DNA from: Eubacteriales Family XIII. Incertae Sedis bacterium
GTDB taxonomy: Bacteria > Bacillota > Clostridia > Peptostreptococcales > Anaerovoracaceae
Reading direction: 5' to 3'
NCBI GenBank assembly: GCA_031263335.1
Contig: JAISGB010000153.1
Location: forward strand, 1-13,432
DNA: 13,432 nt
Positions 6,189 through 10,267 of this stretch are shown piece by piece. The notes beneath the pieces were generated by a model. It was not told the origin of the DNA. It searched no databases and saw nothing but the letters and a program-made list of their open reading frames with translations. Positions within the stretch are counted from its first letter, which is position 1. The number at the start of each line of letters is the position of its first letter. A program made the translations under genes and the position numbers.

Positions 6189-9100
6189 TTAACACGCCTT
6201 GTCGATCCGTCTCCGTCTCATCCGTATCCGCATCAATATGAAGATGAGGCCGATCATGGAAGCCGACAGCATGATCCACCATCCCGTCATGTTGCCGTCG
6301 TCGCCGGTCTGCGGCGCGGAACCGATTGAATCCTGTTTGCTTTCAGCACCTATCTCCAACCGGATGTCGCCGCTTACGCCGTCCAAAAACTCGGCTACGA
6401 ATACATACGTCCCCTTCGGAAGGCTTTTCAGATAATCCTCATGCAAGGTGATGATCGTGCTGCCCTGCGTGATCGTATAGGAGGAACGGGGAACCTCCTT
6501 GCCGTCGCACAGCAACCGCAGGAACTTTGTGTGGTCGGCGTCCACCTTCGCGAAGGAATTGCCGTCGCCGGTGAATGTGAAAGTGAAGGTGTCAAAATTC
6601 TTAATGACGGGATAGATCACCGGAGCGGCGTCCCTGTATGTCGCCGTGACCGTGACGGCGTTCGCCGGCATGGTGAAGGTTGTCGCGGCGGCGCTCGCAT
6701 CGGCAAAGCCGCCCCTTCCGTCGCTCTCCCATCCGGCAAACACCTTGCCTGACGGGGCGGCGACCGCCGTAATGCGCACCGCTGTCCCCTCCGTATACGG
6801 GCCGTCGCCCGTATCGTCCCTGCCGCCCGACACCGTCAAGGCATAGGTCTGCCGGATGACGAACCGCGCGTCGGCGTTCGCCGCTGCGGGCAGGGCTGCG
6901 GCGGCTGTGAGTACGGCGGCGGGGACGGTGATGGCAAACGCCGCCGCGCCGCTCACGGCGGGCGCGCCGCCGAAGGTGAGCGTAACGGTCTTGCTTCCCT
7001 CTTCCGCGTCGGCGGCGACCGTCATGCCCGAGGGCAGATTTCCAAACCACGAGGAAGCGTCGGCGTTCACGAGCGCCGCTTTTACCGTATCGCCGTGAAG
7101 CGTGATGGCGGCTGTTTGTGGCGTGAGCGGTTTGCCGACCGCGCCGTCGATGACGCCGGCGCTTACGGCAGCAACGGGGATCGTCGTCACGGACAGCGGG
7201 ACAAATCCTGTATTCGCGCCATTCGCATAGGCGATGCCGCCTTGGCCGGACTGTCTGTCCCAAACCGCCGTCGCGCCGGATCCGGGTGAAAGCGAGATGT
7301 CGGTCGTTGTGCCGCAGGTGTAGACTGTTTGGCCGGCGCCTTGATCCCACGCGATCACCGCGCCCGTGTCGGTCGCGTCCGTGAATCCGCCGGCATTGTT
7401 TGGCAGATAGATCACATTGCCGGCGCCCGCGATCGCATCGCCGTAGGCAAACACAAGGCCACCGGTGACCGTGACGGCGGAGCTTGCACCGGTGGCGTAA
7501 ACGACATAGCCCGTCGTGGCGCCGGCCGCGCCGCCGCTTATCGTAACGGCGGAACTTGCACCGGCGGCGTGAATGACATAGCCCGTCGTGGCGCTGATCT
7601 CGCCGCCGCTTATCGTGACGGATGAGTTTTCACCAACGGCCTCAATGGCGGCGCCTGTCGTGGCGTTGGCGCTCACCTCACCGCCGCTGACTTCCACACT
7701 GCCGAATGTCCGAATGGCTGTGCCGCCGGTCCCCATCGCCTCCACCTTGCCCGTGCCGCTGACCGTAACGGACGAGCTTGCGTCGGTGGCGTAAATGGCG
7801 TAACCTATCATGGCGCCGGCGCTCACCTCACCGCCGCGAACTTCCACACTGCCAGTTGTTGTCCAAATGGCTGTGCCTCCGGTCCCCGTCGCCTTTACAT
7901 TGCCCGTACCGCTGACCGTAACGGATGGGCTTTCTCCGTCGGCATAAATGGCGCGCCCTGTTGTGGCGCTGACCTTGCCGCCGCTTATCTTAACGGAGGG
8001 GCTTGCGCCGGCGGCTTCAATGGCATAGCCTGTCGTGGCGCTGACCTCGCCGCCGCTGATTTCCACAACTTTGTCATATGTATAAATGGCGCGCCCCGTT
8101 GTGGCGCTGACCTCGCCGCCGCTTACCGTAACGTCGCCGTAGGAGCAAATGGCGTAGCCTGTCGTCGCGCTGACCGTAGCCGTATCTTGTATGTTCACAT
8201 TGCCTCTCGTCCAGATGGCATAGCCGTTGCTTCCCGTCGCTTCCACCTTGCCCGTGCCGCTGACCGTAACGGATGAGCTTGCGCCGTCGGCTTCAATGGC
8301 ATAGCCCGTCGTGGCGCCCACCTCGCCGCCGCTGACTTCCACACTGCCGTATGTCCGGATGGCTGTGACGCCGGCCCCCTTTGCCTCCACCTTGCCCGTG
8401 CCGCTGACGGTGACATTCAGGTCGGTGTTCGAGGGATCCGGCATATCGATAACCGAATGATCATATTCGGTGGAGTCGGTGAACACCGTGCCGCCGCTCA
8501 CCGCAACGGTGGAGGTCAAGCCGTCGGCGTAAATGGATCTGCTTTTTTCACCCGAAGCGCTGACCACTCCGCCGCTCACTGTAATAGTGGAACCGTTGCC
8601 GTAGGTGTAAATGGCTACGCTCTCATCAGCTGTTTTCCACATCGCTGTAGCGCTGACCTCGCCGCCACTCACTATAATGGTGGATTTTTCATCGTAGGTA
8701 TTATTGGCGACAATGGCGACATAACCCACAGTATGGATAAGGCCGCCTTTCACCTCAAACACACCGCAGCCTCGCAGTCCAATCAACGGGTGGTTGAAGT
8801 CGGATCCCCCTGTATAAGTGGCGTCCCATTCCACTTTCGCGCCCGCCGCGATATTCAACGTGATACCGTCCGTTGCGTCTGTAACGGCGCCGGTTATGGA
8901 AACGGCGCCGGACGAAACCGTCATTGTGCCGGAAGGCGTACCGCTGATCGCCACCTCATCTCCGTCGCCCACGATGGGCGCCGTCGCATCGATCCATGTG
9001 TGCGTCGTCGCCAACGGCTTTATCGTCCCTCCCGGCGCCGCCGCGTTTCCGACGGACGTGATCGCGCTCCGCGCGAGGGTCGCGCTTTCGGGAAGTTTCG

Positions 9101-9379
9101 GCGGTTCCGGTGGTTCCTGAACGGACACGCCGCCGTCCGCGTCAAGGTCGACCGGATTGTCGACCGGCTCCGGGTCAGAACCCTCGGTTACCGTACCCCC
9201 CCCATTTTCATCTCGGGGATCCCCGTTGCCGCGCCGGCCGCTGCGCCTTGCGTCACCTCGGTCGCCGTCCCGTCGCCGGTCGCGGCAAACGCCGTCTGCG
9301 GCATGACGAGCGTCGCGATCAATAGCGCCAATAGCGCAAGTATGGCCTTTCTCTTTGCCGCAACAATCAATCTTGACAT
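6189..9379 (-). CDS. Sortase-anchored, repeat-rich surface protein, frame-shifted at a G8 tract
   Basis: Two frames make one gene. ATG 9379 has a strong ribosome site (GGAGGT, 9393-9388, 8-nt spacer) and encodes a clear signal peptide (hydrophobic core about 12-26, AFA cleavage site near 32), but stops after 63 codons at 9188. The frame that stays open to 6189 carries the rest. They join at eight G on the coding strand (9203-9196): one extra G, two fewer, or a -1 ribosomal shift gives about 1063 residues. That product would have a Pro/Glu/Asp-rich linker (about 65-97), about 17 beta-helix-like repeats (about 230-650), a divergent InlB/Flg_new-type repeat (about 846-919, GWESDGRGGF and FTMPANAVTVTATY), a carbohydrate-binding X2-like domain (about 920-1013) and a sorting signal (APQTG 1022-1026, hydrophobic stretch, RMRRRR tail). 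Probably a wall-anchored adhesin or shield. As read, the gene is off unless frameshifting occurs; sequencing error is possible. Confidence 0.8.
7432..8686 (-). repeat. Tandem degenerate coding repeats (about 17 units)
   Basis: Units of about 22-25 residues (66-75 bp) alternate between two types: V-x-[VI]-SGGEVSATTGYAI and VTVSGTGKVEATG, usually separated by a short x-A-x-GASSS or TxGS turn. I counted about 17 units from VSGGEVSATAMW to VTGGLVFAYGDAI. Regular small and hydrophobic residues suggest a right-handed beta-helix or beta-roll stalk. Neighbouring units share long near-identical DNA, so length variation by recombination is plausible. Confidence 0.8.
9196..9203 (-). repeat. Homopolymer run of eight G (coding strand) at the frame junction
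   Basis: C8 on the plus strand, G8 on the coding strand. In the secretory frame it reads ATG GGG GGG GTA, forming a G GGG GGG slippery heptamer. In the surface-protein frame it reads AAT GGG GGG GGT. Downstream on the mRNA, 9188-9163 can form a bulged hairpin (4 + 4 bp) about 8 nt after the heptamer. A change of one or two G switches the frame. Confidence 0.9.
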
Positions 9380-9428
9380 ATTCCTTCACCTCCGCTCCCC
9401 GGGCTTCAAATGCTCACATCTGTGATAT

Positions 9429-9457
9429 ATTATACTTCACTATGGTTCACAATACAA
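9429..9457 (-). promoter_or_regulatory. Promoter of the surface-protein gene
   Basis: On the minus strand, TTGTAT (9457-9452) and TATAAT (9434-9429) are 17 bp apart: a perfect -10 and a half-matching -35. Transcription would start near 9422, giving a leader of about 40 nt with the ribosome site at 9393-9388. Confidence 0.6.
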
Positions 9458-9734: not shown

Positions 9735-10267
9735 TTGCGAAATGCTTTTCGGTCGCTCGTTCCAAGGAAGCGAGTGATTTCAGGCGGTTTTCGAAGGGGG
9801 AGATGCATCTGCTGAATCACCTGTGCGAGCATCCCGAACGCGCCATGCCGGGTTGCCTCAGCGAACAGATGGGGATCAGCAGCGCACGGATCGCGATGAT
9901 ACTCAACAGCTTGGAGGCGAAGGGGCTGATCGAAAGGAGCATCGACAGGGCGGATCGCCGCAAGATATTGGTCACGGTCACGGACGACGGCGCACAACTG
10001 ATCCGAGAGAAGCGGATCATGATGCAGAAGGCCTTCGGCCACGTCCTGCAAGAGATGGGGGAGTCCGACACGCGGGAGTTCATCCGTTTGGTTACCCGCT
10101 TCTTGGACATCATGCAACAGATGCACGGCGCCCCCCCCCATATGGACGGGGACGAGGATCGGCGGCGCCCGTGCGGCTCTGCGGCCGATCGGGAGGACTG
10201 CCCGCACGCCGCGATGTGCAAGGGTTTTGCGGATAAAGGCAAAGACGAAACAGACAGCGAGGAGTGA
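9704..10267 (+). CDS. MarR-family transcriptional regulator with Cys-containing tail
   Basis: A 187-residue protein. Residues about 5-140 are a MarR winged helix-turn-helix: an N-terminal dimerisation helix, a recognition region LSEQMGISSARIAMILNSLE (52-71), a wing with DRADRRKILVTVTDDG (81-96), and C-terminal dimer helices. It most likely represses its own operon, probably through the dyad at 9571-9605, and would control the two exporter genes that follow. Its stop (TGA 10265) lies within 5 nt of the exporter ATG, indicating translational coupling. MarR proteins are usually about 140-155 residues; here a tail of about 45 residues follows, with C157, C166 and C172 plus H168, a possible metal- or redox-sensing element. 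A C9 run (10131-10139) sits at the domain-tail boundary, so slippage would replace the tail. The weak ribosome site at 9691 makes the start slightly uncertain. Confidence 0.88.
   Translation: MDYERATRELIAKCFSVARSKEASDFRRFSKGEMHLLNHLCEHPERAMPGCLSEQMGISSARIAMILNSLEAKGLIERSIDRADRRKILVTVTDDGAQLIREKRIMMQKAFGHVLQEMGESDTREFIRLVTRFLDIMQQMHGAPPHMDGDEDRRRPCGSAADREDCPHAAMCKGFADKGKDETDSEE
10131..10139 (+). repeat. Homopolymer run of nine C inside the MarR gene
   Basis: C9 encodes the end of Ala143, Pro144, Pro145 and the first base of His146. With C9 the frame runs to 10267. One extra C gives a 32-residue alternative Arg/Gly-rich tail ending at 10236. One fewer sends the frame through the exporter start. 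It is the longest homopolymer noticed in the window. Confidence 0.9.

Follow-up and report, generated by a model that had tools for sequence, protein, structure and literature searches.

The gene of a large surface protein in an uncultured bacterium of the Anaerovoracaceae very likely belongs to a phase-variation system that acts by slipped-strand changes at multiple loci. The phase-variable surface antigen proposed in the initial annotation turned out to be the best supported reading of the locus: the G/C runs of the genome show a second mode at G9-G12, the same layout is found in the own genome of the gene (G000), in two genomes of the same genus (G001 and G002) and in G081, all three frame offsets occur among the loci, paralogues in G081 differ in the tract, and a homologue carries a tract in frame.

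Results

The window, i.e. the whole stretch of DNA that was analysed (13,432 nucleotides), is contig 64 of the metagenome-assembled genome (MAG) G000, which comprises 1.57 Mb in 279 contigs and is 58.8% complete. The neighbouring genes encode a class 3 fructose-bisphosphatase (FBPase), a DUF3784 protein, a MarR-type regulator and an ABC transporter, and with 89-61% identity the nearest FBPase relatives on record belong to four MAGs titled Clostridiales Family XIII bacterium. The style of the isolate names in these records hints at a termite gut as a possible source, for which one termite paper gave no match. In a comparison of gene order with L100, the nearest named relative, blastn aligned nothing but the FBPase gene, which is 89% identical; no G/C run of at least 7 was found in 16.1 kb of L100. 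A second large ORF with a signal-like start lies at positions 1-1800 on the minus strand, where it is cut by the contig end; it has no tract of 8 or more and no match in Pfam or NCBIfam.

Table 1. Features of the surface-protein locus and its surroundings in the window
Feature	Position	Strand	Remarks
63-aa ORF	9379-9188	minus	start, signal peptide, short linker; stop directly past the tract
Ribosome-binding site GGAGGT	9393-9388	minus	8 nt upstream of ATG 9379
Possible -10 box TATAAT	9429..9434	minus	by eye; weak -35 TTGTAT (3/6) 17 nt upstream
G8 tract	9203-9196	minus	exactly eight G, between signal-peptide ORF and body frame
Surface-protein body	6189..9194	minus	1001 codons past the tract and stop; frame differs from the signal ORF
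Imperfect repeats	7470..8175	minus	63, 72 and 153 bp (VSGGEVSATTGYAI-like units)
Divergent InlB B-repeat domain PF18998	6630..6812	minus	Pfam, E 1.7e-12
C-terminal sortase-like signal	6192..6317	minus	APQTG, hydrophobic stretch, arginine-rich tail; by eye
C9 tract	10131..10139	plus	in frame, close to the C-terminal end of the MarR-type regulator, whose gene precedes that of the ABC transporter

The initial annotation had described a well-started ORF (ATG, GGAGGT, signal peptide) that ends after 63 codons, a separate frame bearing the repeats, the nominal GTG of which at 9389 overlaps the GGAGGT, and a run of eight G joining the two frames; the ORF was found at the same coordinates on the minus strand, and the separate frame, the overlap and the exact length of the run were likewise confirmed (Table 1). 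The N-terminus of the 63-aa ORF is signal-peptide-like (MSRLIVAAKRKAILALLALLIATLVMPQTAFA), a basic part being followed by a hydrophobic part and an AxA end. By the simple hydrophobicity rule on which all signal-peptide calls rest, the export signal of the surface protein is present, but in the deposited copy it stands in the other frame. Counted from GTG 9389 the body frame has 1066 aa; it is open from stop to stop for 1074 codons, including the passage through the signal region, and no internal stop occurs in the 1001-codon body. Codons were scored in a 17-codon window after training on 35,168 codons. The signal frame was preferred at about 9319-9229 and the body frame downstream of about 9214, and this switch between about 9229 and 9214 fits a frame change near the G8 tract. 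The scoring is noisy, however: the body frame exceeded the signal frame at 9394-9334 and remained positive over the greater part of the signal region, and at about 9064-9004 it was itself exceeded by the third frame. In the promoter scan, where at least 4/6 matches were required per hexamer, the TATAAT/TTGTAT pair fell below the threshold and was not listed.

The repeat region of the body has the look of a beta-solenoid and may adopt this fold. The sortase-like signal, read by eye, consists of SAPQTGDD, a hydrophobic stretch and RMRRRR; none of the anchor models of Pfam and NCBIfam matched the body, and two sortase genes (PF04203, above cut-off) were detected in the MAG. The C9 in the gene of the MarR-type regulator is possibly a second contingency tract of the window, in which case a slip would change the end of the regulator.

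The whole genome G000 contains 15 G/C runs of exactly seven, two of exactly eight and 13 of nine or more, the latter comprising ten G9, two G10 and one G12. In 20 spaced contigs of the same genome (119,517 bases) runs of 4, 5 and 6 numbered 577, 132 and 13, and longer ones were not encountered. Run counts thus drop four- to eleven-fold with each extra base as far as length 8, beyond which they climb; from the 15 G7 runs and P(G|GGG)=0.218 we expected 0.9 runs of G9+ and observed 13, so the G9-G12 runs form a second mode beyond chance. A homopolymer longer than chance, the length of which sets the frame, is what marks a contingency locus, and this was found at the window locus.

The numbers of exact G7 and of G9+ runs were compared in 30 genomes. 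Normal decay was seen in G004 (25 and 0), G009 (34 and 0) and G011 (23 and 1), and decay from a high level in G069 (163 and 10), G072 (101 and 8) and G076 (104 and 5), while both classes were high in G008 (147 and 25), G016 (122 and 44) and G057 (65 and 12). Long runs were unusually many per G7 in G000 (15 and 13), G001 (19 and 11), G002 (0 and 4), G042 (8 and 10), G081 (19 and 42) and G083 (6 and 9); the other 15 genomes counted had 0-2 long runs each. The second mode is present in G001, G002 and G081 and absent in G004 and G009. In a wider count, which included the window's own genome, at least one G9 occurred in 62 of 118 genomes. G016 has 80 runs of G8+, several of them at contig ends, and at G010:C9:141153-141246 long G runs repeat every 27-29 bp or so.

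The position of the tracts relative to export signals was evaluated by two rules. Under rule A, a start with a Shine-Dalgarno-like site and a signal-like core has to lie no more than 600 nt upstream of the tract, its frame has to stay open as far as the tract, and beyond the tract any one of the frames has to be open for 100 codons or more; rule B, which was added post hoc after examples had been noticed, covers tracts that separate the start codon from the export signal. The sets included the 15 tracts of at least 8 in G000, 50 of the 80 in G016, and in G081, which has 42 G9+ tracts, 33 tracts located in 28 stretches (Table 2).

Table 2. Tracts beside export signals; the last two columns refer to both rules together, matched controls being positions in the same stretches and P values binomial
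Genome	Rule A	Rules A and B	Matched control	P
G000	5/15	7/15	10.9%	0.0005
G001	4/12	4/12	9.3%	0.02
G002	0/4	3/4	3.5%	0.0002
G081	17/33	20/33	8.1%	3e-14
G083	2/15	2/15	11.1%	0.5
G016	5/50	6/50	8.1%	0.2
G042	0/10	0/10	16.2%	1

On unbiased G000 contigs 175 of 4472 control positions satisfied rule A and 294 of 4392 (6.7%) the two rules together. For rule A the tracts of G000 gave P 0.0002 against the unbiased and P 0.007 against the matched control (8.8%); significance was not reached in G083 (P 0.38) and G016 (P 0.15). With both rules no excess was seen in G083, G016 and G042. When ten of the 15 exact-G7 runs of G000 were examined as a further control, one was positive by both rules and none by rule A (long tracts 5/15 vs 0/10 by rule A, Fisher P 0.057). 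Eight of the 15 G000 tracts fell outside both rules, several being apparently intergenic. By eye, the tract of L063 in G000 (a coding-strand C9, in frame) follows a signal-like stretch overlooked by the rule, as does that of L203 in G083; in two other G083 loci, L196:4003 and L197, the tract shortly precedes a signal-like stretch and may be located upstream of the true start. The association between tract and export signal is strong in the genus of the window and in G081; G083, G016 and G042 gave no significant excess.

The offset between the signal frame and the longest open frame past the tract, which was taken as the body, was 0, 1 and 2 in 13, 10 and 10 of the 33 rule-A genes, respectively, or 8, 10 and 10 when the five genes of G016, all in frame, are left aside; G081 gave 3, 7 and 7. 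Several frame states and no favoured offset were thus found across the loci of five genomes, and this spread points to random slippage and not to a programmed frameshift. Among tract-free signal starts (unbiased G000 contigs and the fetched G001, G081 and G083 stretches) 30 of 40 were in frame, and seven of the ten out of frame were short ORFs.

Paralogues were informative in the same respect. L274 and L298 of G081 are identical at 112 of 120 nt before the tract and 23 of 24 after it; their tract lengths differ, and one is OFF while the other is ON. L271 and L276, also of G081, share 117 of 120 nt before the tract and differ in its length, both being OFF. In G000 the loci L061 and L065 match at 106/120 nt in the signal region, have the tract in common and encode different downstream proteins, as if the signal-plus-tract piece could be moved as a front end from gene to gene. 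L311, from another genus, is the homologue closest to the body and a protein of 2431 aa with a signal-like start in a single frame (45% identity over residues 203-875); its gene contains an in-frame C9 about 72 codons past the ATG, a comparable place with another base, therefore an intact version of the architecture exists in nature with a tract of its own. Within the genus no homologue of the body was found in G002, and in G001 the C-terminal part alone was recognized (41%), in a 621-aa open frame with an in-frame G9; the whole surface protein was found in neither of the two congeners compared, which are 63% and 74% complete.

Pfam was run on 19 chosen, mostly large tract-gene bodies and gave matches in 14 (8/10 in the G000/G001 set, 6/9 in the second set). 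The G000/G001 set contained a putative adhesive domain (PF20595) in L061 and below cut-off in L068, BspA-type LRR in L065 and L192, a PMP-like repeat in L063, and a SpaA-type domain in L184; L189 is a pilin that bears an LPXTG anchor, and L185 a surface protein with a metallophosphoesterase match. No Pfam match was obtained in L059 and L066, L059 showing a weak POMP repeat in NCBIfam. In the G081/G083 set InlB-type Flg_new repeats (L268, L269, L272), further LRR and beta-helix matches, a G5 protein (L203 in G083) and two HsdS genes (L262, L200) were identified. No Pfam match was obtained for L297, L197 and L284 (G002). The G9 tracts of the two HsdS genes for type I restriction specificity (L262:3956 in G081, L200:3994 in G083) lie inside the gene or just before it, and these are possible phase-variable restriction-modification systems. 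In G002, of the same genus, two in-frame G9 (L282:594 and L283:845) stand just before type IV prepilin-like GFTLVE stretches. At L061:4961 (G000 C122), some 540 nt ahead of another tract gene, an inverted repeat with a G8 in its loop is visible by eye (gacaggaagc...gcttcctgtc).

Discussion

In the proposed mechanism translation would begin at ATG 9379 and yield the export signal, the length of the tract would change in living cells, and the full-length product would be made and anchored; the benefit would presumably be a varied display serving attachment, or phage or host recognition. The copy in the deposited MAG is OFF as read from its sequence, a state given by one MAG consensus call. Its G8 is one of the two shortest among the 15 G000 tracts, and with a tract of this length switching may be slow, or the locus may be locked OFF. 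Absent mismatch repair, judged on MutS1, was not supported: MutS1 was matched in 22 of 22 genomes including G000, 19 above cut-off and three as partial matches.

The short tract is also what speaks for a decayed gene, a former switch or an ordinary linker that is now a fixed pseudogene in this species: the eight G are fewer than in 13 of the other 14 tracts, and of the congeners compared (63% and 74% complete) neither has the whole protein, G001 retaining its C-terminal part alone. Decay is nevertheless unlikely in view of a body that runs for 1001 codons free of internal stops and of frames that are still coding-like on both sides of the tract, according to the noisy codon scoring. A homopolymer error of assembly or sequencing in a gene that is constitutively in frame would suit a fragmented MAG (279 contigs, 58.8% complete), as G runs are error-prone, and annotated tract lengths can depart from measured ones, as stated in a report on Bifidobacterium breve (PMC9187656). 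Such an error could account for the single tract of the window, but not for the genome-wide pattern: it would neither create the second mode at G9-G12 nor put it beside export signals, nor would it spread the offsets over 13, 10 and 10 genes while three quarters of the tract-free signal starts are in frame. We therefore regard it as quite improbable for the gene.

A fixed share of full-length protein could also arise by programmed ribosomal frameshifting or by transcriptional slippage; G runs can be slippery, and no stop interrupts the body frame where it crosses the signal region. This mechanism, however, requires a single constant offset, and a programmed frameshift gene was rejected on the three offsets seen in the 33 genes, which leaves it a very slight probability. 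Slipped-strand phase variation is thus the reading that we prefer for the locus.

Poly-G/C contingency loci are well known in Campylobacter and Neisseria, where many tracts in genes of surface structures and restriction-modification systems set ON and OFF states by frame. These are Gram-negative pathogens, whereas here sortase-type surface proteins are concerned and the tract stands beside the export signal. On/off switching of display by G tracts is known mainly from pathogens; to our knowledge, the present lineage is not known as one.

The closest precedent is the pilus of B. breve UCC2003 (bbr_0113, bbr_1889), in which the Sec signal and the LPXTG part are in two ORFs parted by a G tract; slippage of the tract was shown, and maximum depth sequencing served to determine its lengths (PMC9187656). 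The layout is the same, surface proteins of the sortase type are involved in both, and the tract length decides there, and would decide here, if a single frame forms; B. breve is a gut bacterium, as the host of the present loci possibly is too. The differences are that B. breve is a bifidobacterium with two pilus operons and measured lengths, whereas the present loci are many, belong to Clostridia, are known from sequence alone and include adhesin-like proteins as well as pilins. In a survey of 99 genomes, homopolymeric tracts near gene starts were proposed as inactivation switches, poly-A/T being enriched and poly-G/C mostly under-represented with exceptions in 9-11 genomes (PMC2831843); the tracts described here are, in contrast, poly-G of nine and more. 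Known phase-variable repertoires consist mainly of surface proteins and restriction-modification systems, according to another source (PMC11868660). Among the matches listed, judged by title and the beginning of the abstract, there was no open-access report on G-tract phase variation in Anaerovoracaceae. The layout is thus already known from B. breve; what looks new is the lineage in which it occurs, how many loci carry it and that different surface proteins share the signal-plus-tract piece.

Beyond the single locus, it appears probable that some uncultured Clostridia possess a large random display system, in which dozens of loci would be switched by a G tract, in many cases one adjoining the export signal of a surface protein. 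This candidate genome-wide repertoire is testable on existing metagenome reads, and it also calls for caution, since switch genes of such layout will be annotated in MAGs as broken or as short fragments. If the proposal is true, each cell would display a random subset of surface proteins, and the signal-plus-tract piece would be common to different surface proteins of these organisms.
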